A stretch of 64,000 bases of DNA, taken from NCBI GenBank assembly GCA_030427145.1, contig JAUHWT010000001.1, positions 1-64,000 of the forward strand. The letters are read 5' to 3'. Source of the DNA: Alphaproteobacteria bacterium. GTDB lineage: Bacteria; Pseudomonadota; Alphaproteobacteria; Rhodobacterales; Rhodobacteraceae. The notes beneath the pieces were generated by a model, which searched no databases, was not told where the DNA came from, and saw nothing but the letters and a program-made list of their open reading frames with translations. A program made the translations under genes and the position numbers. Below are positions 3,684 through 61,572 of this stretch, piece by piece; position 1 is the stretch's first letter; each line of letters starts with the position of its first letter.

Positions 3684-4172
3684 ATGACCGAACAGCCCAG
3701 AAAACTCAGCTCCGCCGACCGCCGACGCATGCGATCCGCGGCCCGGTTCTACATCGTGCAGGCCCTATTTCAGATGGAAGCCTCCGACTCCGGCCTCGAC
3801 GACGTGCTGGATGAATTCGAAACCTACCGCCTCGGCGCCGAAATCGACGGCGTGGAATATGCGGAAGCTGACAAAAATCACTTCCGTGACATTATGACGG
3901 CCGCCGTTGACCGTCAGGCCGCGATTGACCAGCTGACGCACCGCGCCCTCGTAGCCCGTTGGCCCATCGACCGGATCGACCCCACAATCCGGGCAGTATT
4001 CCGGGCCGCCGGTGCGGAATTCCTCGCAAGCGATACGCCACCAAAGGTCGCAATCACCGAGTACGTGGACGTGGCAAAGGCCTTTTTCCCAGACGGGAAA
4101 GAGCCTAAATTCGTCAACGGTGTGCTCGACCACATGGCCCGTGAGGCAAAACCCGAGAGCTTCTCGGACTAG
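3684..4172 (+). CDS. nusB: Transcription antitermination factor NusB
   Basis: 162-residue all-helical NusB, which binds boxA RNA together with NusE and supports antitermination of rRNA operons. Recognisable elements are the N-terminal helix RSAARFYIVQALFQME, the central LTHRALVARWPIDRIDPTIRAVFR and the C-terminal VAITEYVDVAKAFFPDGKEPKFVNGVLD, close to the family signature. The gene lies immediately behind ribH, the common ribH-nusB arrangement of proteobacteria. Confidence 0.95.
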   Translation: MTEQPRKLSSADRRRMRSAARFYIVQALFQMEASDSGLDDVLDEFETYRLGAEIDGVEYAEADKNHFRDIMTAAVDRQAAIDQLTHRALVARWPIDRIDPTIRAVFRAAGAEFLASDTPPKVAITEYVDVAKAFFPDGKEPKFVNGVLDHMAREAKPESFSD

Positions 4173-44375: not shown

Positions 44376-44410
44376 AAAAAAAAAGAGCCCGGTGCGAACA
44401 CCGGGCTTTT
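44376..44410. terminator. Bidirectional terminator between the LysR gene and the giant gene
   Basis: Perfect 8-bp stem GCCCGGTG/CACCGGGC with loop CGAA. It is flanked by nine A residues on the left and four T on the right. On the minus strand this reads as hairpin plus a T9 run, so it best serves the giant gene ending at 44462. It can also stop the LysR transcript. Confidence 0.88.
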
Positions 44411-44461: not shown

Positions 44462-47400
44462 TTACCCGAAATCATCGTAGTTGATGATCAGCTTCGCGGC
44501 TTCACCGTCCGAGTTGAACGCGTGGGCTGCGCGGCCACCGGAGCCGGTGATCCGGAAGGACAGGGCGTCGAGGGCATCGATGCCGCCATCCTCGATCAGG
44601 GCCTCGATCAGCGTGCTGATGTCGGCGGACTGGTAGTTCTGGTTCTCGGTCCACTGCTCGACATTGTTCCACTCGACCTCCTCGTTCAGGTAGGACCGGC
44701 TGTTGCCGTCACCATTGGTGAAGGTCGGGTTGTCCAGCGTGTCCTCGATCTGGATCACGAAGTTCGCGGAACCGCTGCTGTCCTCGAAGGCGTTGAACTC
44801 GAAATAGGCGCTTTCGATGTCTGCCGTGTCGGACAGGGTGATGCCTGTGAAGCGAAGGTCGGCATACTGCTCGTTCGGACCATTCAGGCCAAGTTCGATA
44901 TCGGAGCTTCCGATGCCACCGAACTCCTCGCGGTCATCCGATCCGGCTGCGATCGAGGAGACGATCGTTCCCGGGGTCGGCTCGCCGCCACCGCCGCCGT
45001 TGTCACCGCCATCCGTCGGGTCACCCTCAACGAAGGTGGAGTTTGCGGCGTTGATGCCCTGGCCGGTGCCTTTCATCAGCTCCCAGTAGTCAAGGTGGTA
45101 ACCCTGCGAGCGTCCGGCGAAGGTGATCGTGTGAACACCGGCGTCGAGCGTGAAGGTCGCCTGGAAGTTGGGATCGGGTTCTCCGTCCAGGTTCTGACCA
45201 AAGCCCCAGTTGCTTGTTCCGGTTCCGTAGACCTTTACGAAGCCACTGTTGGAGACGGTTGGCGACTGGTTGGTTTGCAGCGCTTCGGCGTCGTCGTCAA
45301 TTTTGAGCCAGACGTCGTTCTGCTGGTCGCCCGCGCCACCCGGATCGCGCGATGCACGGACCCGCATGGTGTAGTTGCCCTCGTCTCCCTCGGGGATGTA
45401 GATCGTGTACTCCAGGAAGCTGTTGGCCTGCGGGTTGTTGAGGCTCTCGCTGTCCTCGTCTCCCCAGAGGTAGTAGCCGTCGCCCTGGAAACCGTTCTGG
45501 TTGCCATCGCCATCCGCACTGTCAAGGAAGCTCCAGTTGCCGCCAGGGTTCTGGCCGCCAGGACCGTTTTCGTCCTCGAACTGGACCTTGAAGCGTGCAT
45601 TGGACGCACCGCTGTTGATGATCTGGTAGTAACCATCAACCGGCGTGTGGCCTCCGCCGCCCTCAACCGGGCCGCCCACGTTGGTCAGGTAGACCGGAGA
45701 CGTCACCGCACCCACCGGCAGGCCGGAGCCTGGCTCGATGACCGATGCCACGAAGGCGATCGGAGCCGTGGTGTCGCCGTCGAAGCTGCCCTTTCCGGTG
45801 CCGTTGGCCGACCCGTAGTTGAACATGGACGAGGCGTCGAACGTGCCGTTCGCACCGATCACCACATCGACCGACTGCTCATCAAAGGCGTTGTTTGCCT
45901 TGAAGTCGTAGCGGGCAAGGCGGCTTTCCACCAGACCGTCGATACCGCTGCTGGTGTTGGTCACGGGGTCGAAACCACGCGACATGGTGATGCGGACGGT
46001 GTCCCCCGGCTCGCCGGTCACGATGACCGTCGGCAGGGTCTGGCCGTAGGTTCCGATGCTGCCCTGAGCGGTGCCGTTGACCGCGATGGACACGTCGTTG
46101 CCTGCCGGTGCCTGGGTGGCAAGAGCGTGCGAACCCGCGTTGCTCTTGTCGCTGCCAAGCTGGCCGCTCGCCGTGGTGCCGTCGTCGAAGAGGACGGTGA
46201 ACAGCGATCCGATCAGTTCGTGACCGGAAATTCCGCCCACATCCCAGCCCTGGGTCGCTCCGGTGTCGACACCGTCGGTGCCGTTCTTGGCCAGACCCGC
46301 GATCGAGTTGGGGTCCATGTCGCCGGAGAAGCCAACGGTCTCACCATTCTGGAAGCCGCCGTCACTGCTGTCGGAGAACTTGACCATCGCGCCCTTGAAG
46401 CCGCCATTCGAGGGCAGTGAGCCCGCGATGGGAGCCTGACCGGGCAGGTAGTAGCCCGATCCGGACACGTAGGCGCCGGTGTTGCCGTCGCTGTTGACCG
46501 CCCAGGGCTTGGCGGCGTTGTCGCCACCCTTACCGTCGGGATCGAACACGCTGTCCTGGTAGAGGGCGCCGCTGACGTCGATGAAGATCGCGGAGATCTT
46601 CTTGTCGCCGGTGTTGGTGACCTCAAAGGAGTTATTGCCGTAGTTCGACGACTGGACGTTGCTTTCGCCGGTCATGATCTCAAGGACCGCGGAGCCTACG
46701 GCGTTGCCGCCATATGTGGCATCGGTCTTGAGGTCGCTTTCACCCTCGAAGGCTTCAAGTGCGCCGGTCGGGTCGACCGGGGCGGAACCGCCGTTGGCCG
46801 TGACCTTGAAGCTGTCCATTGCCGTCTGGAACGGAGCGTCCACACCGCTGTACTGGGTCTGGGTGAAGCCCGCGCCCACACCGGTGTCGGTGTCGAAGAT
46901 CGCCGCGGCGAGTGCGCCGGTGACGTTCAGCGTACCGAAGCTGACATTGGTGGCGCCCGCAATCGGGTTGCCGCCGGCGTCAAGGAAGGTGGCGAAGCCC
47001 TGGAGGCTGGCGGAGCTGGCCGAACCGGCCTGGACGACCATTTTCAGGTCTACCGCGCTGAACCCGTCGAGACCGACCGGGAGAGCACCACCCAGCTTGT
47101 CCTCCGCGTCGTTGGTGCGGCTGGAGAACTCGAAGGTTTCCCCGGTGAAACCGAACACCAGCTTGGCGAAGTCCGTGCTGTCGACACCCACATGGATACC
47201 CACCTGGTCAAAGTTGGCGGCTCCGGAGGAGAGGAACGGGTTGTCCACCCGGGCCTCAACCGTGAAGTCGCTGTTTTTGATACCAAGCTGGTAGTCGTCA
47301 TCGGGGTTGTTGGTGCCACCCGTGTCGCCGTTGGAGGCGGTCACGTTCAGCTTGCCACCCGAGACCGTCGCCGTGCCGGTTTCCTCGTCGAAGTTGGCGA

Positions 47401-50400
47401 GGGCCGAGCTTCCTGGCGTGCCGCCCTGAAGCAGACCGGTGAAGCCGTTCTGGTAGACGGTGCCGTCCGTATCGAAGTTGAGTTCGATGGAGGCGCCGGT
47501 TTCCAGCAGGGTGCCGTTCTCTGCATCCCAGGCGAAGTGGTCGTTGATGTTGTCAATGCCGTCGCCGTCAATGTCCGTATCCACGGAATTGGCGATGTCG
47601 TCATTGTCGAGGTCACCATCCGGAGCGAACGGATCCTCGTTGGTCGCGCCGATATCGATGGTGAAGCCGTTCGACGTCGTCTCGGCGATGGCATTGGCCG
47701 CGGGCGAGGCATCCGCCACCGCACCGTCCGGGATACGGACCGCGAAGGTGGTGCTTTCGCTCCAGCCGCCGTTCGGGGCCGCGAAGGAGAACTCCGCCAC
47801 ACCGGTTCCGGCGTCGAAGCCGACCAGGGTTGCCTGGCTTCCGGTCTCGAAACCGGCGGCCACGAGGATGAGATCCTCCGCACCCAGGGTTGCCGCGTCG
47901 ATGCCGCTGGCGTCCGCGAAGGTCACCAGGATGGTCAGGTCGCTGTTAGCGTCTTCTGGATTGACGATCTCGAAGGTCGCGGTCGGTGCCTGCTCGTCGA
48001 CCACCGCAACACCGCCGGCATCCACATGAAGGTACTCATATGTCGCCTCGAACTGCGGCTTGTTGTTGTAGTGGCTCTGGGTGACACCCACGCCCACGGT
48101 GGCAGCCGGGTCGGCAAGCGCCGTTCCGAGATCGCCATCGAGGGTCTGCGGGCCAAGCTCGATCGGGTCGCCGATCTGGCCGGTGGCGCCGATGAGCGTC
48201 ACGGTTCCGTTGGCTGTCGACACGCCGCCCTCGATCTCAACGGAGATGTTGAGAACCAGTTCGTCGATATCGGCGAAGGCCACGCCGCCGGGCAGTCCGG
48301 TGGATACCTTGCCTTCCGAGCCGCCAATGTCCTTGGTCAGCTCAAAGGTGTTGGCGCCGGAGCCGTAGACCAGTTTCAGGAAGTTGTCCTGATCGAGGCC
48401 CAGGGCCAGTCCGATCTGCTGGTAGTTGGTGGGAGCCGCGTCCTTGAACGGGTTGGCGATGCGGGTTTCGACCGTGAAGTCGTCGTCGCGCTTGATGCCG
48501 ACCATGAAGTTGTTCTGGCCGCTGTTCGCGCCACCGTTGTCGCCGTTGGAGGTCAGGACACGCAGGGCACCGTCCGAGACGCTGGCGTTTTCAGCCACTT
48601 CCTCGTTGTACCCCGCATCCGGGCTCTGCAACAGACCGGTCAGACCGTTCTGGTACGGCGTGCCGTCGGTGTCGAACTCCAGGTGGATGCTCTGGCCGTC
48701 CAGAAGAACCTGGCCGTTCTGGGCATCCCAGGCGAAGGCGTCGTCGACATTGTCGATACCGTCACCGTCGATGTCGCTGTCGGCGGAGTTGATGGTGTCG
48801 TCATCGTCCAGATCGCCCTGCGGTGCATACGGATCAACCTCACCGTCATCCACATCCGTGACCGCCAGCTGGAAGTCAGCCGAGGCGTCGGGTGTGGCAC
48901 CCACGGTGTCGTCGTCAACCGTGACCGTTACGTCGAGGGCTGTCTGCGTCTCGTAGTCGAGAGCCGCGTCGGCCTTGAGGAACAGCCCGTCTCCGATGAT
49001 CTCGAAGGAGGCCGCATCAGCGCCGTCGAGAGCAAGGACACTGGTGCCCAGCGCGTCGTCGGTGATGACGATGTCGGCCACGCGGATACCGAGCGAGGTG
49101 TCCGCATCCTCAGCGAGGCTGGTGACGATGGGCGTCAGAGCCACGGTCGGGGCCTCGTTGCCGTCAGTGATCGCGAGGACCAGGTCGGCGGTTGCGTCCG
49201 GGGTATTCCCGACGGTCGCGTCGTCCACCTCCACCGTTACGTTCAGCTCGGCCAGGGTCTCGAAGTCGAGGGCGGCGTTCGCTTTCAGGAACAGTTCCTC
49301 GCCGACAATCTCGAAGAGATCGGCATTGGCGCCCGACAGGGTCAGCACGTTGGTGCCATCGAGGTCGTCCGTGACGGTGATGTCGGCCACCTTGATGGCG
49401 GCGGTGACATCGGCCAGTTCGGACAGTTCCGTCAGAACCGGTGTCAGGGCAACGGTCGGTGCCGCGTTCACCGGTACGGCGTCAACCGTGATGGTGAAGG
49501 TGTTCGGCACGATGACGCCGGAGTTTGCCGGTCCATCGGTGGCCCCCACGGTCACCTGGAAGGTGCCCGCCTCGGTCGGTGTGCCCGTCAGAACCCCGTT
49601 TTCCATCGTCAGCCACGCGGGGCCGGAGATGAGGGAGTATGTCAGGGCATCCTCCTCGGGGTCGTTGAACGCGCCAATCGCCATCAGATCCAGTTCGATC
49701 GGGCCGGCGATGGCCTGCTCGATGTTGTCGATGGGCGAGGCCGCCGGGGCGAGGTTGACCTCACCTGCTGCCGGGATCAGTTCGATGTAGTCGAACCGGG
49801 CGTGCTCGAATTCCTTCGAGCTGGCCTGCAGACGCAGAACCGTGTCGTCGCCAATCTCGAGACCGTTGAATGTCAGGGTGCGGCGGTTCTGGATCTGGGC
49901 GCCGTTTCCGCCGCCGTCCTGGTCGAACTCCCATTCCGCGAAGGTCACGAATTCCTCACCGCCGGTCTGGTAGGCGAGCGATGCCGAGGAAACCCCGTCA
50001 TTCTCGTCGTAGAAGGCGACGCGGACATCGTAGGATCCACGGGCGTCGAAGTTGGCGCCGAGGTCGATGGTGGCCTCACCGTCACGGTTGCGCAGCATCT
50101 GGATGATCTCCGGGCCGTCCGAGGTCTGGCGGGTGAAGAAGCCCTGCGGTGCGAGGTCCATGTCCTCGGCCTCGATCCGGATGGTTTCCCGCTGCTCGCC
50201 GAGAACGTCGAAGATGAAGGTCGAGCTGACCTCAAATTCGCCGTCGGAGGCGATCACGGTGACCGGGACGGAGCCTGCTGCCAGCGGCGAGCCGGAGAAG
50301 ACGCCGTTCTCGAAGGTCAGGCCGGCGGGCAGTCCGCCCTCAACCCGGAATTCGAGCACGTCACCCACATCCTGATCGGAGAAGTACGCATTGACGTCGA

Positions 50401-53400
50401 GGGATACCGCGGAGCCCACGGAGACGGCCTGACGGGGGATGCCCGTGGTTTCAGGTGCATCGTTTTTGTCCTCAACCGTGATGTCGAAGGTCTCGACCGT
50501 GGTGCTGTTGCCGTCGCTGGCGGTGACGGTCACCGTGAAGGTGCCGATGTCGCCCGCTTCCGGCGTGCCGGAGAGAACACCGTCCGTGATGGTCAGCCAT
50601 TCGGGTCCGGAAACCTCGAAGGTCATTGGATCCTCTTCCGGATCGTAGAACTCGGACGCCACGTCGTACTCGAAGGCGTCCCGTTCGATGACGGACTGGT
50701 CCTGGAGGCCGAAGGGCGCTTCCGGCGCCTCGTTCTCCGGGTCGACAACCGGTGCGAGCGGTGTGAACTCGAAGTAGTCGACGCGGACATGCTCGGCCTG
50801 GTCGCGGGTTCCGTTCAGGGTGAGAACGGAATTTGCGTCCACCGTGACGGTGGTCAGGACCTTGGTGCGCAGGCTGGAGGCCTGGGCCGCATTGCCGCTG
50901 GTCGCGTCGTCATCCATCACGAGGCTTGCCGTGGTGGTGCCGCTGTCGCCGGTGACGGAGATGTCGAGCGTGCTTTCGCCGTCGTTCTCGTCAAAGTAGG
51001 CGATCGCCATGCGGTAGGTGCCCGGAGCGAGCTGCTCACCGATGTTGAAGGTCGCGGTACCGGCGGACTGGCCGAGCGGCACGTAGATCAGGGCATTGCC
51101 GTCGGAGGCATTGTTGTTCTGAACCTGGTAGCCGGTCATGGTATCGGCATCCTCACCCTGGATCCGGACCGGATCGGCCGGAGGAGTGACGGTGCCGTCG
51201 CTCACGACGATGTCGAAGCTGTCGGTTGCGACTTCAAAAGCCTGGTCGGTGGCCGTTACGGTCACCGTGTAGGTGCCAGGCGTGGTCGGCGTTCCGGAGA
51301 TGACACCGTCCGAATAAGCGACGCCATCCGGCAGGTCGGTGACCTCGATGGAGAGGCTGTCGCCGCTGTCGTGATCGTCGTCGGCGAACATGTCCTCAGG
51401 CAGCGTGAGCGAGAAGGCCTCGCCTACCGTGCCGGTGGTGTCGTCGGTCGGGATTTCGAGCGTCGGTGCGTCATTGGTGTTGTTCACCGTCAGGTCGAAG
51501 TCCTGGGAGACCGAGAGACCTTCGCCATCCGTGGCCGTGACGCGGACCGACAGGGCCGCAACATCGGCGTCCAGCGGCGTACCGGTGAAGGTCGTGCCGT
51601 CGAAGGTGAGCCATGCGGGCAGGTCCGATCCGTCCGCCAGCGTTGCCGTCAGGATCAGGTTTTCCGCACCGGCGTCGTCGGCGAAAGCGTCGGACGGTAC
51701 GGTGAAGGAAAGGGCCGCGTCCTCGTCGATTTGCTGTGCCGCAATGACCTGGTCCACTGTCGGGGCCGCATTTTCCAGGCCCTCGACGACGATTTCGAAG
51801 CTGTCGGTTGCGACTTCCAGATCCCCGTCAGTGGCCGTAACCGTGACGGTGTAGGTGCCGGCGGTTGTCGGCGTTCCGGAGATCGCGCCATCCACGTAAG
51901 CGACGCCATCGGGCAGGTCTGTGACGGTGATCGTCAGGCTGTCATCGCTGTCGAGGTCGTCATCAGCGAACATGCCATCCGGAAGTTCCAGCAAGAAGGC
52001 TTCTCCAACCTTGCCGGTTGTGTCGGCGGTCGGGATTTCCAGGGTCGGCGCGTCATTGGTGTTGAGCACGTCGAGATCGAAGTCCTGGGAGACCGAGAGA
52101 CCGCCCTGGTCCGTGGCAGTGACGCGGACCGAGATGGTCCCAACATCGGCGTCCAGCGGCGTGCCGGTGAAGGTCGTGCCGGTGAAGGAGAGCCATGCGG
52201 GCAGCTCCGATCCGTCCGCCAGCGTTGCGGTCAGCGTCAGTTCAGCCAGATCGGCGTCGTCCGCGAAGGCGTCAGCCGGTACGGCGAAGGAGAATGCCGC
52301 GTCCTCGTCGGTGGTCTGGGCGCCGATGGCTTGGTCCACGGTCGGGGCCTCATTTGCCGGCGGTGTGCCGAGCGACTGGACCTCGAGGAAGTCGTAGGAG
52401 ACGCTGAAGGTGTCACGGCTGTTGCCTGTCGGTGTGGAAGTCTGGATGACACCTGCACCGACCGGATCACCAGCCAGAATGGCGGCGCCGAGAGTTCCAA
52501 GAATTTCCAGTCCGTTACTCAGAAGCGGTGCTGTTTCCGAGATGGCTTCGTCGTTCGCGTTGAACAGGGTTCCAAGTGCACGGAACATCGGCACGGGGGT
52601 ACCATTGTCGTCCTCGATATAGGCTTCCAGAGTGACTTCAACAGAAGCCGCGTCAGCATTTCCAAAGCTTTCAAGGTACACCGGCGCTGCAACCGCAGCG
52701 TTCCCGCCGACATTGTCCTGAGCCAGTTCAAACTCAAAACCGGTTCGGCCGAATACAATCTTCATCAGGTTGTCCTGGTCGGTACCGATAACGACACCTG
52801 CCGACTGGAAGTTCGTAGGCGCATCCAACTCCGCAGTAGTGGAGATGAAATCCGGCATGTCGAACCGGGTGGTGACACGCAGACCTTCCGCTGCCGAATA
52901 GGCCGCCACGAGAGCGTTTTGCTGACCATTGGCGTTGTTGTGATGGTCGCCGCTGGTCGCAGTGATGTTCAGCTTGCCGCCGGAGACGGAGGCGTCAGCC
53001 AATTTGATCTCCTCCACTTCCGGCTTGTTGCTGACCAGAGCGCCGGTGAGGCCGTTTTCGAACGGGGTGCCGTCGGTGTCGAACTCGAGGCGGACGGTCT
53101 GACCGGCGGTCAGGGCGGTGCCTGCGTTGGTGGCGTCGTAGACGAAAGTCTCGTCGCCGTTGAGCAGCGTGTCGCCGTCGATGTCGTCGTCCTCGCTGTT
53201 GGCCACTCCGTCCTGATCGAGGTCGTCGCCCGGTGCGAAACCGACCGGAAGCGGTGCGGCGTCGCCATCGGTAATGGTGACGGTGGCCGGAGTGGCCGAG
53301 AAGTCGACCGCGCCGTTGGCGTCAGTGGCACCGGTGATGGTGACCGTGAAGGTCTCCGCGCCCTCGTCCAGCTCATCGTTGTTGAGCGTGATGTCGACGG

Positions 53401-56400
53401 TTGCGGTGGTTTCGCCAGCGGCGATGACGACCGTGCCCGAAGGTGCGGTGTAGTCGTCGCCCGAGGTCGCCGACACGTCGGTCAGGCTGTAGGAGACGGT
53501 GATGGCCTCATCGGTCGGACCGGTGCGGGTGAACTCGACCGTGCCGAGACCGGTTTCCTCGTCGAAGGAGGCGTCGGCCACGGAGACGGCAGCGGTTTCA
53601 ACAACCGGCTCAACCGCCTCGCGGATGACGATTGCGGAGACCTTGGCGCGGTCATAGGGTTCGCCCTCGCCGTCGAGCGCAACGTCGAACGAAAGGTCAA
53701 TTTTTCCATTCGCGCCGGGCGAAATTGGGTCAGACAGTTCGATGATCACCGGAGCGTTAATGTCACCGCCGTTTGCGGCAAGAACATCGAAGTTGGCTAG
53801 AACGGGTTCCGCGCCATCTTCCGCAGAGACGTTGAAGATGCGGACGCCGGGGTCGCTTGCGTAGATCTCAGCGAAATACAGATCAACGAAGTAGGACTTG
53901 GATGGGTCAAGATCGTCCGAGGAGAAGGTGAAGTTTCCGTCTCCGTTATCGTTGACTTCGGTCTCGTAGACAGTGCCATCAAAGAGCGGCTGATGCTTGT
54001 TTCCGCCGTTGTTATCCTCAAAATCCGTCCCGCCGGCGAAAACACCGCCGCCATTCGAAGCGCCAACAAACGTAACGCCATCCCCTTCAACGTTTCCTCC
54101 TCCCGCATTATACGCAAGGACCATGTCGCCGCGAATGAGGGTCGGGGCGTCCGTGTCATCCTCCGTGACGGTGCCGGAAGCGGTGCCGTTGGTGGCGGAG
54201 ATGAGGAACGTGTCGGATGCGGCGTTGGAACCGCCGGTCAGGGTCACGTCGATCGTGTCGTCGCCATTGTCGTCGTCGTCATTGGCAACGTCGATGGTCA
54301 GGGTGGCAGCACCGTTCACGAAGGTCAGCGTCTGCGTCTGGCCCGGCGCGCCGGTGGCGTTAAAGGTGACGTCGACGTCTCCGTTGAAGCCCGCATCGGA
54401 TGCTGTGACTGCAAATTCAAGAGTGGTGTCGTTAATGTCGCCCGCTTCCACAAGGGTTGGAGCGTCGGAAATTGATAGGGTGATATCGGCCACTGGTGCC
54501 TCCGTTACGATGAAATTAAATGAGGCTGTGGTCGGGTTGCCGCCCTGGTTCAGCCAAAGTGTGTAGGTGCCCTCGCCGAGAGGACCGGTGAAGCCGGTGA
54601 TCGGCACACCTTCCTGGGTGAATGCCCCGATGTCGGGCAGGATGTTGTCGCCGATCTCGCCTGGGCTGTAGACCAGGCCGCCGAGCAGCGGCGTGCCGTC
54701 CGGATCGGGCTGACCCGTTACCGGATCGACCGTGAGGGCCGTGCCTTCCTGGAGGCCGAGGAACCCGAACGGTGCGATCTCGGTCGTCTCGTAGCCGTCA
54801 AGCTCAATGGCTGAGAGCACGTGGCCGGTGGGAACCGTGAAGGTGATGTAGTCGCGGTCACGCTCCTCCTCGATGCCCGGACCCTGCTGGGTTGCGGTCA
54901 GGAGGTTGTCGCCGAGCGAGAGCGTACCGCCATCGGTCGGGTCCAGCCGGTCGTCGGACAGGTCGCCGAACGCCGTGCCGAAGGCCGTGTCACCGGGATC
55001 CGCCGCCTGCTGTGGCGAGGTGACGCTGAGGAAGTCCCAGCTGGCCTCAAAGCTGCCCAGGTCCTGGTAGTCGGTGGAGGTGACACCCACCACGCTGGTG
55101 CCGCCATTCAGGGCTGCGACAACATCCGCCGGCATCGCCAGGGCCGGAGCCGTGAGGAAGCCTGGTGTGGCTTCGGGGCGCACGCCGCCGAGGATGGCAC
55201 CCTGCGCGTCGAAGAAGGTCACGATCTGTGCCACGGTCGGGGATGCGGCGCTGCGGTCAACCGCAAGGCTCATTTCCACCGAGGCGATATCCGCGAGACC
55301 AAACGGCGCGGCCGCGGCTGCGGAGATATCGGAGATCAGGATCTTCTGGTCGATCTCGCCCTGCGACCACATCTGGATGGCGTTGCCGCCATTGCCGCCG
55401 AAGACGGTTTTGACGAACTGGTCCTCATCCTGGGCATTCGCCGCAGTAGTCGAGATCAGGATACCCTGTTGGGCGTAGTTCGGAATGACACCGTTGGTCA
55501 CGCCGTTTGCCGCGAGGACATCCGCCGTGAACGGATTGTCGAACCGGGTGGTCAGATAGATCTCGGTCAGGGCCTGATCCGTCAGGTCCACGGATTTGAC
55601 GAAGTCGTTCTTGCTCGCCGTCTGTGGCGCTTCTGAGAGGTCGCCATTGGAGGTTTCAACGATCAGTTTCCCGCCGGAAACCGTGGTCTGAACGGCGGCA
55701 TCGAGTGCGCCGCTGCCGCCGAGGACACCGTCGAAGCCGCCTTCGGTAAGCGGGTCGCCATTGGTCTCGAAGTCGAGCTCAAGGATGGTGCCGCCCGCCG
55801 GGATCTGGAGGTCCGAGTCGCTGGCGCCGATGGTGACGGTGCCGGTGGCGTCCGCGATGACCGCGTCGCCGGAGACGCCGGTGATGGAGACGGTGAAAAT
55901 CTCAGCCGGTTCCTCGTCACTGTCGTCGGTAATGGCGATGGGCAGGGTCACCGAGCCGCTGTTTGCCGGGATCACGACGCTGCCGGTGAGGGCCGCGCTG
56001 ATGTCCGACGCGTCAGCCGAACCGGGGTTGATCTGGTAGTCGACCGTGACGGCCTCGGTGAGGTCGCCGATGCGGGTGAAGGTGACGGTTGCGTCGCCGC
56101 CCTCGACCGCCGTGGCGTCGGCAACGGAGATGGTTGCGGGCAGGTCGGACGGTACCGCCTCGTAGACCGCGATGGCGCTGTAACCGGCCTCGCCCTGGGA
56201 GCTGTCTACCGTGACGGTGATGGTGCCGTCGGTTACCAGCACGTTGTGGGTGCGGGAGATCGGCTTGTCGGCGCCACCGGCTTCGGCAAAGACGTCGAAG
56301 TCGTTCAGAACCAGGTCACCCTGGACGTAGAAGTCACCGACGCGGGCATTGGCCGAGGAGTGGTAGAGTTCCGCGAAGTGCAGTTCGACCACGTAGCTGC

Positions 56401-59400
56401 CATTGGCGAAGCCCGAGTAGGTTGCCGTCCAGGTGTTCGATCCGGAGTCGCGGTAGGTGTGGTAGGCCGATCCGTCGAGATCGACACCGCCGCTGTTGCT
56501 TGTCGGGAACTGGCCGTCAACGTTGCTGTTGAGCTGCGCGTTGGTTTTGGCACCCGTGTACCAGTCGTTGTTGTCGGCCTCAAAGTCGATCGGGTTTCCG
56601 GCCGCATCCGTGATGAGCGTGTCGCCGGTGATGGCGGCGCCGTAACGGTTGTTGTCGGTGATGCCGTCGATCGGGTCGGCGCCGAGGGTTCCGGCCGTGG
56701 TGTCGGTGGTGCCGACATTGATGGCGCGGACGACGTTGCCGCGAACGAGGGCTGCAAGGTTGGCCTCAAGGATAAATGCGGCACTTGCGGCTTCGGTCGT
56801 GTTGTCGGCGGCGTCGGAATAGGCTCCGGCCGCGATGGAGATCTGACCCTCGCCATTCGGCCAGGCGTTGTCATCGCGGGACAGGGTGTAGATCAGCGTG
56901 GCGGTTTTGCCGTCGGCGCTGATGTCCACGTCGGGTGCCGAGATGGTGTCGGGCACGATGCCGGTGAACTGAAGTTCATCGCCGTCGAGGCCGGTGAAGT
57001 CATCCGCATCAAAGCCGGTCTCATCGGAGAGAACCACGGTTGCGGTGCGCTCTCCGTCCTGGATGCTCTGTTCGTTCTCGACCGTGATCGAGACGATTTC
57101 AGGCGCGGTTTCGTCCGCTGGCGGCGTGTAGGTGCCGCCGAGTTTCCAGACCGCCAGGCCGCTCAGTTTGGCCTGGTCGACCTCGAGGCTGAACTCGACA
57201 TTCAGCTGGCCGTCGGTGACCACGACCTCGTAGGTCTTGATGACCTCGATGCCCGCACCACCGGCATCGTCGATGATGTCGTAATTGTCCTCAACCAGCT
57301 GATCCTCAACGAAGATGTCGAAGACACGCATGTTGTCGGGATCGGAGCTGGTATGGAGACCGTGATAGATTTCCGCAAACAGCAGATCGACGAGGTAGGT
57401 GCCGTTTTCGACCGGAATGGAGTAGCCCCATTTGGCCGCCGGAGCGGACGAACGCTCGACCGCGTGGATCGCGTCCAGTTCCGTGTTCGGGAAGTCGTGG
57501 GAGTTCGATGACGCGTTCGAGTGGGTTTTGAAGTCACCCGTCGACGTGTAGCCATCGCCCTGGCCGCCGGACGTGTTGGATTTAAAGTCGATGACCATGT
57601 CGCGCATGGTCACGCCTGTTACGGCCGGACCACCGGCGTTGATGGCGATGACGGGCGCCAGGGCCGGTTCAACCGCGATCCGCACGCCGTCGGAGGCCTG
57701 GGTGATCGAAATGGACGCGGCACCATCGGCCGGGTCGTAATCGGCAAGGTCGGGACCGGTCAGGGTGATGGTCTGGCCGCCGATGGTAATCTCAGCGGAG
57801 CCGGCCGAGCCGCCGAAGGTCGGCGTGCCGATGGTGTTGAGGGTTTCGCCCTCAATGATGACCTCGTCCTGGAAGGAGAAATCGGTGATTTCGTCGCCGC
57901 CCAGGTCCTCAAGAGTACCGCGCACACTGTCGGCACCCTCGCGGGTGATGACGGTGTTGTTGCCCGAGCCCACGCGGATCAGGTTGTCGAGGTCGTTGGC
58001 CTCAACCGTGAAGTCGGCGGAGGAGCCGGTGCCGTCGAAACGCTCCACATTCGCGGCCATCGGATCGAGATCCGTGTCGGTGCCGGTGTAGATCAGCGTG
58101 TCGGTGCCGGCGGATCCGTTTTGGTCAACCTCATCGGCGTTGGTGGCATAGAGCTCGTTGCCGAAAGCCTCGATCTCGATGCTGTTGAAGTCGATGGCTT
58201 CCAGCGGATTGCCTTCGGAGGTTTCCGCAAGAACACCTATTGCGGCACCCGAGGACAGAACCGGGCCGTCGCCGTCGGTGATGGTGTGGTTGCCGGTCAG
58301 AACGTCGCGCAGGACGCCCACGGGCAATGTGCTGTTGCTGAGCGGAATGGAGGTGAAGCCCGCGTCGCCTTCGAGGTGGTAGGATGTTTCAATCTCGAAG
58401 GTGTTGATGTTGACTTCGAACTTGAGCTCAACGGTGCCGATGGACGACGATGTCAGCGAAGGCACGGCTGCGGTGCCGAGCACCTGGTAGCCGCTGTCGC
58501 CGGTCTCGATGCCAACCTCAAAGCCTGGAACGCCGCCCACCGAGCCGAAGACGAAGCGGACGAAGTTTGCCTGCGTACCGTCGCCAAACATCATGCCGAC
58601 GAGCTGGCCGGGCTGGAGACCGCCATCCACGGACGGCACCCAGTTTTTGATGTTGAACACGGCCTCGACACGGTCGGTGTCGCTGGACGGTTTGATGCCG
58701 GTGTGCAGAACGTCACGGGCATCGTTCTCGGAACCAACGACGCTGCCAGGAACGACCGCCTTGATCTGAAGGCGGGGTGCGTTCGCGCCGGGGATGATGT
58801 TGCCGCCGTTGTCGAACAGGCCGTCAACAACCGCGCCGGGCTCGGCACCATCGGCGATGGTTGTCGCGTCCTTGTTGGGCGTTTCGCCGTCCAGGGCCGC
58901 GCCAAGCAGGCCGGTGTTGGACAGGGTGCCGGGGAAGTCGGTGGACAGGGCCTCGAATTCCAGGGACAGCTTCTGGCCCGGCGCGATGTCGTAGCCGTTG
59001 CTGGAGCTGTATTCGAACGGGTCGTGGATATTGTCGACGCCGTCGAAGTCATTGTCGGTCGGGTCAACAATTTCCTGGCCTGCGAGAGGAACGGCACCGT
59101 TCGCGGGCTGCAGAATTTGAATGGAGTTCTGGCCGAGTTTGGCGATCCAGATGGAGCCCTGGAAGGGCTGGGACAGGCCCTGGTTGAAATACTGGTCGCC
59201 AAGCGTTGCAATGCCGAGCGGGTTTCCTCCACCAAGGCTTATTACCTCGCGGTCAGCCGCAACGGTGAAGCCCTGGCCGTTGGTGGTGGTGCCAACGGTT
59301 CCATCTGCCTCACGTCCGATGATGATCAGCTCACCATTGTAGTCGGTGGTGAGGATCGCGCCGGACATGTCGATATTGCCCTCGTCCAGGATGGTCGAGG

Positions 59401-61123
59401 TGTACTCGGCGAGGCCGTTGACCGAACCGTTGCCGGTGTCGACGGCGCCGTCGTATTTGCCGGCTTCCTTATAGTCGCCTTCGATTTTGTTGGGTTCAGC
59501 GACGATGTCCGCGATATCGGCGGGCAGTCCGGACTGGCCCAGCAGAGTGGAGTTGGCCGGAGCATCCTCACCAACGGGAAGGGCAACGCCGGTGCCGTCC
59601 TCGAGTTTGTAGATGTTGTATTCGATGCCAGGCTCAACAGCCAGAACGCGACTGGTCAGTTCACCGGCATCGGCGCCGTAAACGCCGGTTGTGGGATAGA
59701 GCGCATCATTGTTCTCAAGGCTTTCGAGGAACGCGATCACCTGGTCGTAGTCGGTCGGGGCGCCCTCGGTGTCGTCATAGCTCGCCTTGTTGGAGATCAG
59801 CAGGAAGGCGTCGTCCGTACCGTTGCCGGGCGAGAACAGAAGTCCGGCAAGCGCACCTTCGGCGCGGGTCGGGTTCGGATGACCACCATAGACATAGGTC
59901 AGGCCGTTGGATTCGTACGTGACCGGGCCGGTGTTGCCCTGCGACAGGTCCCGCCCGTCAAGGTCGTCGGAGCGGGTGACCTCATGGAAGTTATCCTTGT
60001 TGGACGGGTTCCAGTTGACGAGGTTGATGTCATCATCCGCGTCGCCGTCACCGTTATTGAGGTTGGTGGAGATGTAATTGAGCGCCTGGGCCAGATCGAC
60101 CGCGCCATTTTCGCCGGCCTCACCGATGGGGCGGCCACCCCAGGAGTTGTTCGCACCGTTGTCGTAGGTCCAGACACGGCCGTCCTCGGTAACTTCCACG
60201 TCGTAGGAATTGCGATAGCCCGGCGAATAGATCTGCACCGGGCTGTCAGCTTCAATTTTTGCGCTGTTCAGGCCGTCATTGCCGCCCTGCGGGTCGTTGT
60301 TATCGTTTTCGCCGTCACGGGTCGGGTCGTCGAGGGTCGGCATGTCGTAGACATAGGACCGGCCGCTGCTGGCATCGGTCAGGATGTCCATGGCGTTGAT
60401 CGCGTCGAGGTCAACCTCAAGGATCGCGGCGCTGTAGGGCTGTTCCTGCTGACCGGCGAAGTTGTTGGACGGGGCGCCGGTGTTGGCGTTACCGCCGTTT
60501 GCAACGAGAAGGCGCTCGGAGATGAGGACACCGTTGGCGTCGACCTCCTGAATGATCTCCAGACCGTTCAGAGCGTGGTTTTCCTCGGACCGGGCCAGGC
60601 CGCGAACGATGTCGATGGGCTCCCAGCTGTCCGGGCCGGTCTGCACCAGCTTGGTGATAACGCCGGAGTTGGTGTCGAGATTGACGTCGCCGCCGCCGGT
60701 CCCGGCGCCGATGCGCTGGTCGGTCGAGGTGACGTACATCGTCACGGCGGGGGTATCCGTGGGTGTTGTCGTCAGCTGGCCGTTGGTGTCGATATAAAGG
60801 CGGTTGCCGCTGTCGTCGTACTGGTTGGTGACGTCGATACCTGTCACCTGGCGCGTGGTGCCGGGGTTGGGGGTGCCGTCGTCGTTGAAGTTGGGGATGT
60901 TTTTGACATCGGAGATCGTCGTCATGTCGGTGACGAAGAACTTGGCCTCCGGGTTGGCGTCGCTGGGGCTGTCGCCGAACTCAACCGTCATGACGTGAAC
61001 GTCGCCGGTCACTTCCGTCACGTAGAGCCTGCCGTCGGAGCCCCAGACGAGCGCGCTTGGCGAGTTCAGATTAAAACCGTTGAGGTCGAGAACGCTTGCC
61101 GAAAAATTGTCGGTAACAGCCAT
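44462..61123 (-). CDS. Giant multidomain secreted protein, putative type I secretion substrate
   Basis: 5553 residues in one uninterrupted frame, acidic and with no cysteine noticed. AGGGGA precedes the ATG by about 8 bases. No Sec signal peptide is seen. Approximate modules: propeller-like region with SGKL- and NHL-type features (1-670); TSP3-like calcium stretch plus jelly roll (685-975); RTX-like patch (1040-1085); malectin-like (1155-1330, 1465-1655, 2330-2498); Calx-beta-like (1665-1775, 2210-2328, 2505-2625); jelly rolls (1775-2035, 2668-2918, 4135-4372, 4531-4775); PPC-like (2040-2208); cadherin/Ig-like (2925-3311, 3465-3638, 3795-4089); CBM6-like (3315-3462, 3641-3788); carbohydrate-binding-like (5155-5365); and a C-terminal beta-sandwich (5381-5553). 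The ABC transporter and HlyD genes upstream on the same strand suggest type I export. It is likely a surface adhesin or polysaccharide-binding protein; a role in biofilm or attachment is inference. Confidence 0.85.
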   Translation of the reverse strand: MAVTDNFSASVLDLNGFNLNSPSALVWGSDGRLYVTEVTGDVHVMTVEFGDSPSDANPEAKFFVTDMTTISDVKNIPNFNDDGTPNPGTTRQVTGIDVTNQYDDSGNRLYIDTNGQLTTTPTDTPAVTMYVTSTDQRIGAGTGGGDVNLDTNSGVITKLVQTGPDSWEPIDIVRGLARSEENHALNGLEIIQEVDANGVLISERLLVANGGNANTGAPSNNFAGQQEQPYSAAILEVDLDAINAMDILTDASSGRSYVYDMPTLDDPTRDGENDNNDPQGGNDGLNSAKIEADSPVQIYSPGYRNSYDVEVTEDGRVWTYDNGANNSWGGRPIGEAGENGAVDLAQALNYISTNLNNGDGDADDDINLVNWNPSNKDNFHEVTRSDDLDGRDLSQGNTGPVTYESNGLTYVYGGHPNPTRAEGALAGLLFSPGNGTDDAFLLISNKASYDDTEGAPTDYDQVIAFLESLENNDALYPTTGVYGADAGELTSRVLAVEPGIEYNIYKLEDGTGVALPVGEDAPANSTLLGQSGLPADIADIVAEPNKIEGDYKEAGKYDGAVDTGNGSVNGLAEYTSTILDEGNIDMSGAILTTDYNGELIIIGREADGTVGTTTNGQGFTVAADREVISLGGGNPLGIATLGDQYFNQGLSQPFQGSIWIAKLGQNSIQILQPANGAVPLAGQEIVDPTDNDFDGVDNIHDPFEYSSSNGYDIAPGQKLSLEFEALSTDFPGTLSNTGLLGAALDGETPNKDATTIADGAEPGAVVDGLFDNGGNIIPGANAPRLQIKAVVPGSVVGSENDARDVLHTGIKPSSDTDRVEAVFNIKNWVPSVDGGLQPGQLVGMMFGDGTQANFVRFVFGSVGGVPGFEVGIETGDSGYQVLGTAAVPSLTSSSIGTVELKFEVNINTFEIETSYHLEGDAGFTSIPLSNSTLPVGVLRDVLTGNHTITDGDGPVLSSGAAIGVLAETSEGNPLEAIDFNSIEIEAFGNELYATNADEVDQNGSAGTDTLIYTGTDTDLDPMAANVERFDGTGSSADFTVEANDLDNLIRVGSGNNTVITREGADSVRGTLEDLGGDEITDFSFQDEVIIEGETLNTIGTPTFGGSAGSAEITIGGQTITLTGPDLADYDPADGAASISITQASDGVRIAVEPALAPVIAINAGGPAVTGVTMRDMVIDFKSNTSGGQGDGYTSTGDFKTHSNASSNSHDFPNTELDAIHAVERSSAPAAKWGYSIPVENGTYLVDLLFAEIYHGLHTSSDPDNMRVFDIFVEDQLVEDNYDIIDDAGGAGIEVIKTYEVVVTDGQLNVEFSLEVDQAKLSGLAVWKLGGTYTPPADETAPEIVSITVENEQSIQDGERTATVVLSDETGFDADDFTGLDGDELQFTGIVPDTISAPDVDISADGKTATLIYTLSRDDNAWPNGEGQISIAAGAYSDAADNTTEAASAAFILEANLAALVRGNVVRAINVGTTDTTAGTLGADPIDGITDNNRYGAAITGDTLITDAAGNPIDFEADNNDWYTGAKTNAQLNSNVDGQFPTSNSGGVDLDGSAYHTYRDSGSNTWTATYSGFANGSYVVELHFAELYHSSANARVGDFYVQGDLVLNDFDVFAEAGGADKPISRTHNVLVTDGTITVTVDSSQGEAGYSAIAVYEAVPSDLPATISVADATAVEGGDATVTFTRIGDLTEAVTVDYQINPGSADASDISAALTGSVVIPANSGSVTLPIAITDDSDEEPAEIFTVSITGVSGDAVIADATGTVTIGASDSDLQIPAGGTILELDFETNGDPLTEGGFDGVLGGSGALDAAVQTTVSGGKLIVETSNGDLSEAPQTASKNDFVKSVDLTDQALTEIYLTTRFDNPFTADVLAANGVTNGVIPNYAQQGILISTTAANAQDEDQFVKTVFGGNGGNAIQMWSQGEIDQKILISDISAAAAAPFGLADIASVEMSLAVDRSAASPTVAQIVTFFDAQGAILGGVRPEATPGFLTAPALAMPADVVAALNGGTSVVGVTSTDYQDLGSFEASWDFLSVTSPQQAADPGDTAFGTAFGDLSDDRLDPTDGGTLSLGDNLLTATQQGPGIEEERDRDYITFTVPTGHVLSAIELDGYETTEIAPFGFLGLQEGTALTVDPVTGQPDPDGTPLLGGLVYSPGEIGDNILPDIGAFTQEGVPITGFTGPLGEGTYTLWLNQGGNPTTASFNFIVTEAPVADITLSISDAPTLVEAGDINDTTLEFAVTASDAGFNGDVDVTFNATGAPGQTQTLTFVNGAATLTIDVANDDDDNGDDTIDVTLTGGSNAASDTFLISATNGTASGTVTEDDTDAPTLIRGDMVLAYNAGGGNVEGDGVTFVGASNGGGVFAGGTDFEDNNGGNKHQPLFDGTVYETEVNDNGDGNFTFSSDDLDPSKSYFVDLYFAEIYASDPGVRIFNVSAEDGAEPVLANFDVLAANGGDINAPVIIELSDPISPGANGKIDLSFDVALDGEGEPYDRAKVSAIVIREAVEPVVETAAVSVADASFDEETGLGTVEFTRTGPTDEAITVSYSLTDVSATSGDDYTAPSGTVVIAAGETTATVDITLNNDELDEGAETFTVTITGATDANGAVDFSATPATVTITDGDAAPLPVGFAPGDDLDQDGVANSEDDDIDGDTLLNGDETFVYDATNAGTALTAGQTVRLEFDTDGTPFENGLTGALVSNKPEVEEIKLADASVSGGKLNITATSGDHHNNANGQQNALVAAYSAAEGLRVTTRFDMPDFISTTAELDAPTNFQSAGVVIGTDQDNLMKIVFGRTGFEFELAQDNVGGNAAVAAPVYLESFGNADAASVEVTLEAYIEDDNGTPVPMFRALGTLFNANDEAISETAPLLSNGLEILGTLGAAILAGDPVGAGVIQTSTPTGNSRDTFSVSYDFLEVQSLGTPPANEAPTVDQAIGAQTTDEDAAFSFAVPADAFADDADLAELTLTATLADGSELPAWLSFTGTTFTGTPLDADVGTISVRVTATDQGGLSVSQDFDLDVLNTNDAPTLEIPTADTTGKVGEAFLLELPDGMFADDDLDSDDSLTITVTDLPDGVAYVDGAISGTPTTAGTYTVTVTATDGDLEVATDSFEIVVEGLENAAPTVDQVIAAQQIDEDAALSFTVPSDAFADDAGAENLILTATLADGSDLPAWLTFDGTTFTGTPLDADVAALSVRVTATDGEGLSVSQDFDLTVNNTNDAPTLEIPTDDTTGTVGEAFSLTLPEDMFADDDHDSGDSLSIEVTDLPDGVAYSDGVISGTPTTPGTYTVTVTATDQAFEVATDSFDIVVSDGTVTPPADPVRIQGEDADTMTGYQVQNNNASDGNALIYVPLGQSAGTATFNIGEQLAPGTYRMAIAYFDENDGESTLDISVTGDSGTTTASLVMDDDATSGNAAQASSLRTKVLTTVTVDANSVLTLNGTRDQAEHVRVDYFEFTPLAPVVDPENEAPEAPFGLQDQSVIERDAFEYDVASEFYDPEEDPMTFEVSGPEWLTITDGVLSGTPEAGDIGTFTVTVTASDGNSTTVETFDITVEDKNDAPETTGIPRQAVSVGSAVSLDVNAYFSDQDVGDVLEFRVEGGLPAGLTFENGVFSGSPLAAGSVPVTVIASDGEFEVSSTFIFDVLGEQRETIRIEAEDMDLAPQGFFTRQTSDGPEIIQMLRNRDGEATIDLGANFDARGSYDVRVAFYDENDGVSSASLAYQTGGEEFVTFAEWEFDQDGGGNGAQIQNRRTLTFNGLEIGDDTVLRLQASSKEFEHARFDYIELIPAAGEVNLAPAASPIDNIEQAIAGPIELDLMAIGAFNDPEEDALTYSLISGPAWLTMENGVLTGTPTEAGTFQVTVGATDGPANSGVIVPNTFTITVDAVPVNAAPTVALTPVLTELSELADVTAAIKVADITVTDDLDGTNVLTLSGANADLFEIVGEELFLKANAALDFETLAELNVTVEVDDATVGNTPDATADLVLAITDGNEAPTVALTPIVTSLAEDADTSLGIRVADIVITDDALGTSVLALDGADAASFEIIGDGLFLKADAALDYETQTALDVTVTVDDDTVGATPDASADFQLAVTDVDDGEVDPYAPQGDLDDDDTINSADSDIDGDGIDNVDDAFAWDAQNGQVLLDGQSIHLEFDTDGTPYQNGLTGLLQSPDAGYNEEVAENASVSDGALRVLTSNGDNGGANSGQNNFMVGIKRDDDFTVETRIANPFKDAAPTNYQQIGLALGLDQDNFLKLVYGSGANTFELTKDIGGSEGKVSTGLPGGVAFADIDELVLNISVEIEGGVSTANGTVTLIGATGQIGDPIELGPQTLDGDLGTALADPAATVGVGVTQSHYNNKPQFEATYEYLHVDAGGVAVVDEQAPTATFEIVNPEDANSDLTILVTFADASGIDAATLGAEDLILVAAGFETGSQATLVGFDAGTGVAEFSFAAPNGGWSESTTFAVRIPDGAVADASPAANAIAETTSNGFTIDIGATNEDPFAPDGDLDNDDIANSVDTDIDGDGIDNINDHFAWDAENGTLLETGASIELNFDTDGTVYQNGFTGLLQGGTPGSSALANFDEETGTATVSGGKLNVTASNGDTGGTNNPDDDYQLGIKNSDFTVEARVDNPFLSSGAANFDQVGIHVGVDSTDFAKLVFGFTGETFEFSSRTNDAEDKLGGALPVGLDGFSAVDLKMVVQAGSASSASLQGFATFLDAGGNPIAGATNVSFGTLNVTGALAAAIFDTDTGVGAGFTQTQYSGVDAPFQTAMDSFKVTANGGSAPVDPTGALEAFEGESDLKTDATYGGNAVGSAVLEIMTGESNVQSSNYGNNSFEVTNTGDKKISAIFIDVSGALYQDSVFDPDGKGGDNAAKPWAVNSDGNTGAYVSGSGYYLPGQAPIAGSLPSNGGFKGAMVKFSDSSDGGFQNGETVGFSGDMDPNSIAGLAKNGTDGVDTGATQGWDVGGISGHELIGSLFTVLFDDGTTASGQLGSDKSNAGSHALATQAPAGNDVSIAVNGTAQGSIGTYGQTLPTVIVTGEPGDTVRITMSRGFDPVTNTSSGIDGLVESRLARYDFKANNAFDEQSVDVVIGANGTFDASSMFNYGSANGTGKGSFDGDTTAPIAFVASVIEPGSGLPVGAVTSPVYLTNVGGPVEGGGGHTPVDGYYQIINSGASNARFKVQFEDENGPGGQNPGGNWSFLDSADGDGNQNGFQGDGYYLWGDEDSESLNNPQANSFLEYTIYIPEGDEGNYTMRVRASRDPGGAGDQQNDVWLKIDDDAEALQTNQSPTVSNSGFVKVYGTGTSNWGFGQNLDGEPDPNFQATFTLDAGVHTITFAGRSQGYHLDYWELMKGTGQGINAANSTFVEGDPTDGGDNGGGGGEPTPGTIVSSIAAGSDDREEFGGIGSSDIELGLNGPNEQYADLRFTGITLSDTADIESAYFEFNAFEDSSGSANFVIQIEDTLDNPTFTNGDGNSRSYLNEEVEWNNVEQWTENQNYQSADISTLIEALIEDGGIDALDALSFRITGSGGRAAHAFNSDGEAAKLIINYDDFG
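48855..49475 (-). repeat. Tandem pair of cadherin-like units inside the giant gene
   Basis: Two adjacent units of about 310 bp (residues about 3882-3985 and 3986-4089). Both begin APTVALTP, share IRVADI/IKVADI ... SFEI or LFEI ... LFLKA-AALD-ET and end in a VDD-TVG-TPDA-AD segment. They form one direct duplication within the coding region. Confidence 0.75.
51190..52355 (-). repeat. Tandem duplication of a two-domain cadherin/Ig block in the giant gene
   Basis: Two direct copies of about 580 bp (residues about 2925-3115 and 3116-3311). Each encodes APTVDQ.I.AQ ... TFTGTPLDADV ... RVTATD ... LSVSQDFDL followed by NTNDAPTLEIPT ... GEAF.L.LP ... SGTPTT.GTYTVTVTATD. The copies are nearly identical in protein over long stretches, indicating a fairly recent duplication or gene conversion. 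Confidence 0.78.
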
Positions 61124-61511
61124 GATATATTCCCCTAGTACTCAAATTCCGCAAAAAACGCGGAAAACACCCATTAAAAGGCCAACTACACCAGCACCTC
61201 CCGAAGTGTTTCTTCGGACGATGAGCTTCGTATTGCATTCGCTTTAGGAAAAACCGGTCGATTGAACCGTCCGTTTGGCTGCGTGATCGAATACCCGCTG
61301 TTCCAAAATACGCTGGAACCCCTGATCGTGCAGCCTGTGCCCTCCCGGTTCGACTACTGCCGAACGTTGGATTACACTTTAGACAAATTTTTACTCAATA
61401 AAACGATTTGTTAGGTTAATTTTAGGCAGGGTTAACCGGTTAATTTTGTTTGTTTTCAATGATTATTTGTGACTCATTTTGTTACTTAAATAAATGTGTT
61501 CGAAAAGAAGT
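61124..61511. promoter_or_regulatory. AT-rich upstream region of the giant gene
   Basis: A 388-base non-coding stretch between the terminator after the HlyD gene and the giant-gene start, clearly richer in A+T than its surroundings around 61370-61510. It must contain the promoter and leader of the giant gene. Apart from the GGTTAA cluster listed separately I see no recognised regulator site and no gene. Confidence 0.6.
61414..61443. promoter_or_regulatory. GGTTAA cluster with TTAACCGGTTAA palindrome
   Basis: GGTTAA occurs at 61414, 61430 and 61438. The last lies within the perfect 12-bp palindrome TTAACCGGTTAA (61432-61443), about 310 bases before the giant-gene start. TTAACC resembles half of the CtrA site of alphaproteobacteria, but the 7-base spacing of the full CtrA box is not present. 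It could bind a dimeric regulator. No target is proven. Confidence 0.35.
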
Positions 61512-61536
61512 GGAGGCCGGAACGGGTCCGGCCTCC
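61512..61536 (-). terminator. Hairpin terminator after the HlyD-type adaptor gene
   Basis: Perfect 10-bp stem (GGAGGCCGGA / TCCGGCCTCC) with a five-base loop. It is followed on the minus strand by a short T-rich stretch (CTTCTTTTCG), 37 bases after the adaptor-gene stop. It separates the transporter genes from the giant gene transcriptionally. Confidence 0.75.
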
Positions 61537-61572
61537 AGTGCGATGTTGCTGATTCCTTCCTTTGGGAGAGAT

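Follow-up and report, generated by a model that had tools for sequence, protein, structure and literature searches.

The giant gene, the exporter genes and the modules

In the window analysed here, i.e. the first 64,000 nucleotides of contig JAUHWT010000001.1 from an alphaproteobacterium of the Rhodobacteraceae, a gene for a giant protein was found at 44462..61123 of the minus strand, stop codon included, as a single open frame of 5,553 codons from ATG with zero internal stops. A sequence-only reading of this DNA had described a 16.7-kb frame with the same coordinates and length, and the strand can be given as minus, since the plus-strand reading of 44462-61123 contains stops. The predicted product (5,553 residues, 574 kDa, pI 4.05, 10.6% Asp) is devoid of an N-terminal leader. 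The GC content of the gene by codon position was 63/46/80%, as expected for coding DNA, and this pattern, together with the existence of long homologous frames in other genomes, led us to reject a chance open frame or an antisense artefact. Two plus-strand frames that lie opposite the giant gene (window 47192-53800 and 57521-61138; 2,202 and 1,205 aa) most likely arise from the GC richness of its third codon positions. The features flanking the gene were as follows:

44386..44407, minus strand: terminator-like hairpin 3' of the giant gene (hairpin scan)
61511..61537, minus strand: terminator-like hairpin in the hlyD-giant gap (hairpin scan)
61573..62880, minus strand: HlyD-type membrane fusion protein of 435 aa, with 449 bp between its gene and the giant gene downstream
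62877..64000, minus strand: ABC transporter of the PrtD type for type I secretion, 579 aa; its gene shares 4 bp with hlyD and continues to contig position 64616

A transporter had been proposed to lie beside the giant, and genes for an ABC protein and an HlyD protein do lie immediately upstream in the same orientation. The ABC protein scored 662 bits against the PrtD model, for which the curated cut-off is 510; one other locus in the same genome passes this cut-off too. No outer-membrane component was seen next to the ABC-HlyD pair. Hairpin scans gave two matches each in the hlyD-giant gap and behind the giant gene, where shuffled sequences gave means of 1.3 and 0.6, respectively. Because terminator-like hairpins are present on both sides, the giant gene may be its own transcription unit. 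Elsewhere in the window (13091-14632, minus strand) a protein matches the Tle1-like phospholipase catalytic domain (PF09994; type VI secretion) at 270 bits, and about 4.4 kb beyond the ABC gene an HNOB (haem-NO-binding) protein is encoded beside a hybrid histidine kinase (L011 7033-9129, plus strand).

The domain map of the giant was assembled from Pfam searches, structure models and comparisons among modules and orthologs. From the N- to the C-terminus it reads:

59069..61123, minus strand: N-terminal GSDH-type beta-propeller, residues 1-685 (structure model)
58154..59068, minus strand: jelly-roll-like module 1 and partial TSP3-like linker, residues 686-990 (homology among modules)
57659..58153, minus strand: short degenerate RTX-like stretch, residues 991-1155 (PF00353 below cut-off)
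57104..57658, minus strand: malectin 1, residues 1156-1340 (Pfam)
56738..57103, minus strand: Ig-like module, residues 1341-1462 (homologous segment in 7/7 orthologs; fold inferred from sequence)
56159..56737, minus strand: malectin 2, residues 1463-1655 (Pfam)
55808..56158, minus strand: Calx-beta-like 1, residues 1656-1772 (Pfam; homologous segment in 6/7 orthologs)
55049..55807, minus strand: jelly-roll-like module 2, residues 1773-2025 (ortholog comparison and module homology)
54503..55048, minus strand: module, type not assigned, residues 2026-2207 (homologous segment in 6/7 orthologs)
54128..54502, minus strand: Calx-beta-like 2, residues 2208-2332 (Pfam; ortholog comparison)
53606..54127, minus strand: malectin 3, residues 2333-2506 (Pfam)
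53258..53605, minus strand: Calx-beta 3, residues 2507-2622 (Pfam)
52370..53257, minus strand: TSP3-like linker and jelly-roll-like module 3, residues 2623-2918 (module homology)
51182..52369, minus strand: He_PIG/Big_9 repeats, residues 2919-3314 (Pfam)
50840..51181, minus strand: CBM6-like by eye, residues 3315-3428 (without profile match)
50198..50839, minus strand: He_PIG repeats, residues 3429-3642 (Pfam)
49808..50197, minus strand: second CBM6-like by eye, residues 3643-3772 (without profile match)
48833..49807, minus strand: He_PIG and cadherin-like repeats, residues 3773-4097 (Pfam; cadherin below cut-off)
48002..48832, minus strand: TSP3-like linker and jelly-roll-like module 4, residues 4098-4374 (module homology; Pfam below cut-off)
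47648..48001, minus strand: Ig-like module by eye, residues 4375-4492 (without profile match; similar segments in orthologs)
46778..47647, minus strand: TSP3-like linker and jelly-roll-like module 5, residues 4493-4782 (module homology; Pfam below cut-off)
45650..46777, minus strand: conserved C-terminal block, type not assigned, residues 4783-5158 (ortholog comparison)
44975..45649, minus strand: CBM6/GH115-C-like module, residues 5159-5383 (GH115_C below cut-off; Foldseek)
44465..44974, minus strand: conserved C-terminal domain, presumed carrier of the secretion signal, residues 5384-5553 (7/7 orthologs, 25-53% identity)

Most of the domains that had been proposed from the letters alone were recovered. 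Malectin (PF11721) matched at three places with 92, 69 and 40 bits (cut-off 23), so that all three malectin-like domains hold, and Calx-beta reached 65 bits against a cut-off of 27. The repeats described as cadherin-like were matched over cut-off by He_PIG and Big_9 but by Cadherin only below it. The five modules described as jelly-roll-like are mutually homologous, modules 2-5 being 25-44% identical to module 1, and a clear TSP3-like DxDxDG linker precedes three of them; their fold label is based on sequence, with DUF1349 matches below cut-off in two of the five and one weak match in a PDB sequence search with their alignment. The pair of CBM6-like domains (at about residues 3315-3428 and 3643-3772) was not confirmed as such: the two show homology to one another and to their counterparts in relatives, but their alignment had no match among PDB sequences at E up to 1, and Pfam gave chance-level matches only (best E 0.11, no sensible family). 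The RTX-like stretch gave PF00353 matches in all seven orthologs tested, over cut-off in one of them, the window copy being below cut-off. A Foldseek search with the C-terminal block, whose model was poor overall (mean pLDDT 62.8), returned GH115 enzymes and CBM6cm-2; these rows stem from a low-confidence region, all other rows were treated as chance, and the result gives a weak indication that a CBM6/GH115-like domain may be present near the C-terminus. A search of the giant against NCBIfam gave partial matches only, far below cut-off.

Family architecture and export

A scan for the propeller in one genome for each of 84,980 species yielded 388 stretches, the best 80 of which were kept. The closest 28 loci, with 51-66% identity in the best segment, comprised 13 from Rhodobacterales, 14 from Halomonadaceae and one from a cyanobacterial MAG. 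The latter (L024; Halomicronema, 62% identity) nonetheless falls among Rhodobacterales in the tree, and its placement in the MAG is probably a binning error. A search with the C-terminal 770 residues, run on the 19 genomes that contribute 20 of the 28 close loci, gave a match in all 19; the surrounding frame was 5,651-7,207 residues long in nine of them and shorter in the other ten, and stops inside a match were present in three of the 19. Seven of the nine long frames were fetched for comparison module by module. All seven keep, in order, the propeller, jelly-roll module 1, the RTX-like stretch, the Ig-like module, malectin 2 and jelly-roll module 2, whereas malectin 1, Calx-beta 1 and the module at residues 2026-2207 were each found in six. 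A variable middle follows in all seven, and then the same three C-terminal modules, the last of which in Halomonas ventosae is only 25% identical and located behind an extra repeat. Leaderless multi-lectin giants that start with a propeller are a real, large and patchily distributed family. The sequence-only reading had suggested a very large, calcium-stiffened glycan-binding protein, secreted or on the surface, in a combination of domains that it did not recognise. Size, acidity, lectin folds, calcium-type motifs and the adjacent exporter agree with a large, probably exported protein that would bind glycans and calcium; that its combination of domains stands alone is not supported, the ends and many modules being common to similar giants.

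Among near kin, the propeller was present in three of 61 related genomes, and the C-terminal query matched six of 101, own genome included in both counts, the other five of the six matching only partially. The LysR gene neighbouring the giant had no match at E 1e-60 in 10 congeners, and the comparison of congener loci was uninformative. Many hosts belong to marine or saline genera, judged by name, and seven plasmid records, two of them haloarchaeal, also carry the propeller. Roseivivax jejudonensis (L061 9959-19552, and L038) has two members, one of 7,207 aa in the main clade and one of 3,198 aa that groups with Methylobacteriaceae. Searches of the open-access literature, judged by titles and the starts of abstracts, turned up no description of the propeller-giant family, which is apparently unstudied so far; the identity of the propeller, the family with shared ends, the leader split and the neighbouring exopolysaccharide genes are new here.

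The presence of a hydrophobic leader was assessed in the 80 kept loci as hydropathy over 12 residues above 1.6, taking the first upstream ATG as the start. The leader was absent from the window protein and from 37 of 37 proteobacterial-type loci (grouped by record title, cyanobacterial MAG included), in which the propeller is located at or near the first methionine. By contrast, it was present in all 43 other loci, from Bacteroidota, Rhodothermota, Verrucomicrobiota, Myxococcota and one unplaced bacterium. In a tree built by a quick method, the window and the 37 leaderless loci separate from the 43 leader-bearing ones at the deepest drawn branch, where the method warns of long branches meeting. 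Outside the 80, a Parasedimentitalea relative appeared by eye to be leaderless and two haloarchaeal relatives to carry a leader. In the latter, encoded on Halobellus and Haloarcula plasmids (L179 5077-12729; L181 5023-11364), the propeller begins ~300 residues into proteins of 2,550 and 2,113 aa, unlike in the giant; the Haloarcula protein ends in dockerin-like repeats. Proteins of Rufibacter, Hymenobacter and Halobellus annotated as 'malectin domain-containing carbohydrate-binding protein' contain the same propeller at 34-38% identity, and no described function was found for them in the open-access literature searched. The type IX sorting model, run on 10 C-termini of the leader-bearing set, was matched over cut-off by five and below it by two; one of the 10 has a dockerin-like end, its profile match being below cut-off. 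Several Bacteroidota relatives (L048, L067, L068, L077, L078, L085 and others) end in two dockerin-like repeats and not in a type IX sorting domain. From the split of 37 versus 43 loci, one propeller module seems to use different exporters, the machine differing across lineages.

Adjacent ABC and membrane fusion genes and RTX nonapeptide repeats are both frequent, not universal, among type I substrates, and an acidic residue followed by a hydrophobic tail is the motif expected of a C-terminal type I secretion signal. The C-terminal ends of several orthologs read as such a residue and tail. Linkage to HlyD was found at one of the 28 close loci, five of which include less than 5 kb of upstream sequence. 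HlyD was found near the giant (within about 11 kb) in the own genome and in two of 13 others: type I genes adjoin the giant in the window and in Halomonas gemina, and are located about 11 kb upstream in Roseobacter sp. WL0113. The remaining 11 of these 14 genomes gave no HlyD match near the giant on the same contig, several giants being close to contig ends. With linkage this rare, a transporter-substrate pair conserved across the family is not supported. All 14 genomes contain at least one HlyD relative, however, so that export by an unlinked system is possible. On these sequence grounds, the giant is probably exported by type I secretion.

A type I substrate of this size could be a surface-held adhesin of LapA-like working, i.e. 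a calcium-stiffened arm to foreign glycans (e.g. algal surfaces) with the propeller as a plug stuck in the exporter. We regard this as possible but doubtful. It would account for the size, the Calx-beta and Ig-like extender domains and the adjacent exporter genes, and anchoring by an N-terminal propeller has been proposed, untried, for BapP of Pseudoalteromonas tunicata (PMC12153261). BapP, the nearest published analogue found, is reported to have a calcium-influenced role in biofilm formation and by its description resembles the giant in having an N-terminal propeller followed by Calx-beta and BIg_9, with putative type I secretion genes adjacent (PMC12153261). By the same description, however, its propeller is a five-bladed domain of 226 aa and a Sec signal peptide is predicted, whereas the propeller of the giant is ~690 aa long, of the sugar-dehydrogenase kind and without a leader; the malectin and jelly-roll-like modules go beyond the BapP plan (PMC12153261). 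LapA-type RTX adhesins such as AhLap of Aeromonas (5,047 aa), as described in PMC12077191, are likewise half-megadalton type I substrates with extender domains and carbohydrate-binding modules. Unlike these, the giant has neither a retention module, its propeller beginning within the first few residues, nor a recognised terminal RTX block, and LapG (PF06035) was not found in its own genome (97.7% complete); four of 20 genomes were positive, all Halomonadaceae by locus of origin. With retention module and LapG both not found, membership in the LapA type was rejected. In addition, leader-bearing relatives from Bacteroidota and other phyla keep the same propeller, whose role is therefore probably not tied to the type I exporter.

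The N-terminal propeller

The propeller-like N-terminus noticed in the sequence was confirmed by a structure model, in which the first ~690 residues fold confidently as a propeller. Its best structural matches were PQQ sugar dehydrogenases and AA12, and NHL and lactonase propellers scored within about 1.5-3 Z units of the best of them. By model, the fold is common to the giant and to GSDH/PQQ sugar dehydrogenases and CAZy AA12 (3a9g, 3das, 6i1t), but identity is only 12-18% among the dehydrogenase matches listed, and insertions make the propeller of the giant ~1.5 to 2 times as long. At the sequence level, the first 700 residues matched no Pfam family. The window protein did not match PF07995 at E up to 10, and an ordinary GSDH enzyme was rejected on this basis; three of five propeller-family members did match at E up to 10 (best 2.4e-5). 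PDB sequence searches gave one chance-level match with the propeller alone and weak propeller matches only with alignment A1. An alignment of 44 propellers shows His183, Arg304 and Asn305 to be invariant. For comparison with GSDH, 25 loci were fetched and one (L101) was left out as short; in the resulting weak and partial profile comparison (probability 23%, no confident C-terminal half), Arg304-Asn305 is aligned with the Arg-Asn conserved in ordinary GSDH proteins, and His183, tentatively, with a conserved GSDH His. By best match, the propeller is of the sugar-dehydrogenase kind, and its enzymatic role is only putative.

These matches and the invariant residues are what would be expected if the main role of the giant were enzymatic, as a sugar dehydrogenase of the GSDH/AA12 kind that uses PQQ, sits on a lectin scaffold and oxidises the ends of poly- or oligosaccharides. 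The lack of a PF07995 match, the low probability of the profile comparison and the nearly as good scores of NHL and lactonase propellers make this improbable, as does a search for PqqC, which turned up in 12 of 20 genomes but not in that of the window.

Exopolysaccharide genes and the role of the giant

On a plasmid of Parasedimentitalea psychrophila, a relative of 2,087 aa is flanked by a sugar transferase on one side and two glycosyltransferases on the other; a gene for polysaccharide export comes next. Six genes, five from this cluster plus the distant Poly_export gene of the window itself, were used as queries in the flanks of the 80 loci, and four of the six were counted. The two left out, for UDP-glucuronate decarboxylase and sulfotransferase, matched two and none of the 37 proteobacterial-type loci, respectively, and neither matched a control. 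Markers were found at eight of the 28 close loci (9 genes in 298 kb) versus two of 40 controls (5 genes in 800 kb), the controls being hand-placed 20-kb regions from nine of the relatives' genomes. This corresponds to a Fisher P of 0.012, which becomes 0.050 after collapsing two near-identical pairs. The other nine proteobacterial-type loci had none, giving 8/37 overall, and 20 of the 28 close loci had no marker in the flank, though many flanks are cut. Nine extra downstream stretches gave a marker match in three, and leader-bearing loci gave one in 10 of 43, without a matched control. Pfam confirmed the Wza, Wzc and sugar transferase neighbours. In Halomonas gemina, a complete exporter and the giant are inside an exopolysaccharide cluster with the order Wza-Wzc-ABC-HlyD-OEP-giant-Wza, the last Wza being identified by BLAST alone. 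An ABC-HlyD pair, Wza, Wzc and a sugar transferase are found within about 14 kb upstream of the giant in Roseobacter sp. WL0113. The 64 kb of the window contain no adjacent exopolysaccharide gene, the only marker match being the query Poly_export gene itself, 43 kb away. Since the test came after the pattern had caught attention and the window copy has no near marker, the link of the giants to exopolysaccharide genes is rated as suggestive; it is based on few loci and is marginal after collapsing.

A lectin released to scavenge polysaccharide, dissolved or in particles, for uptake, and without relation to the coat of its producer, would suit the many different sugar-binding modules and the many hosts in marine or saline genera, but is very unlikely given that the subset of neighbouring frames scanned contained no sugar-uptake gene and that exopolysaccharide genes surround some relatives.

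The explanation that we favour, with a probability of roughly 0.55, is that the giant is exported and acts as a multivalent glycan binder in the exopolysaccharide coat or matrix. It draws on the lack of a leader, the adjacent PrtD-type ABC and HlyD genes, the malectin domains and, with less weight, other sugar-binding folds, the fixed ends and the exopolysaccharide neighbours; the window copy without an adjacent exopolysaccharide gene, the 20 of 28 relatives without a marker, the marginal enrichment and the rare HlyD linkage count against it. In such a scheme, the chain would be made without an N-terminal signal and would exit C-terminus first through the adjacent PrtD-type ABC-HlyD exporter, the outer-membrane channel being encoded elsewhere. 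Outside the cell it would fold with calcium, as suggested by the acidic chain and the TSP3-like, Calx-beta and RTX-like motifs. The malectin, jelly-roll-like and CBM-like modules of a half-megadalton chain could then bind polysaccharide at many points, probably that of the producer's own coat or of the surrounding matrix, resulting in cross-linking or docking. The fixed first ~2,000 and last ~770 residues would carry the essential functions, and the repeat-rich middle may serve as a spacer of variable length.

An extension of this matrix role, which we consider unlikely, is that an ancient propeller-plus-malectin module acts as a matrix-resident sugar oxidoreductase or sensor and is exported by whichever machine the lineage owns: type I in Pseudomonadota, Sec plus type IX sorting in Bacteroidota and a leader-dependent route in haloarchaea. 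In Pseudomonadota the module would have expanded to a lectin scaffold of half a megadalton that leaves the cell together with exopolysaccharide and acts on it at the cell surface.

Most giant proteins that marine bacteria export have yet to be read, and the family described here is definable by three parts: a fixed N-terminal block that opens with a sugar-dehydrogenase-like propeller, a variable middle and a fixed C-terminal block. The occurrence of the same propeller in leaderless and leader-bearing lineages offers a way to tell the function of the module apart from its route of export. If the link to exopolysaccharide genes is true, a protein partner of bacterial slime would have been named that is open to deletion and testing.
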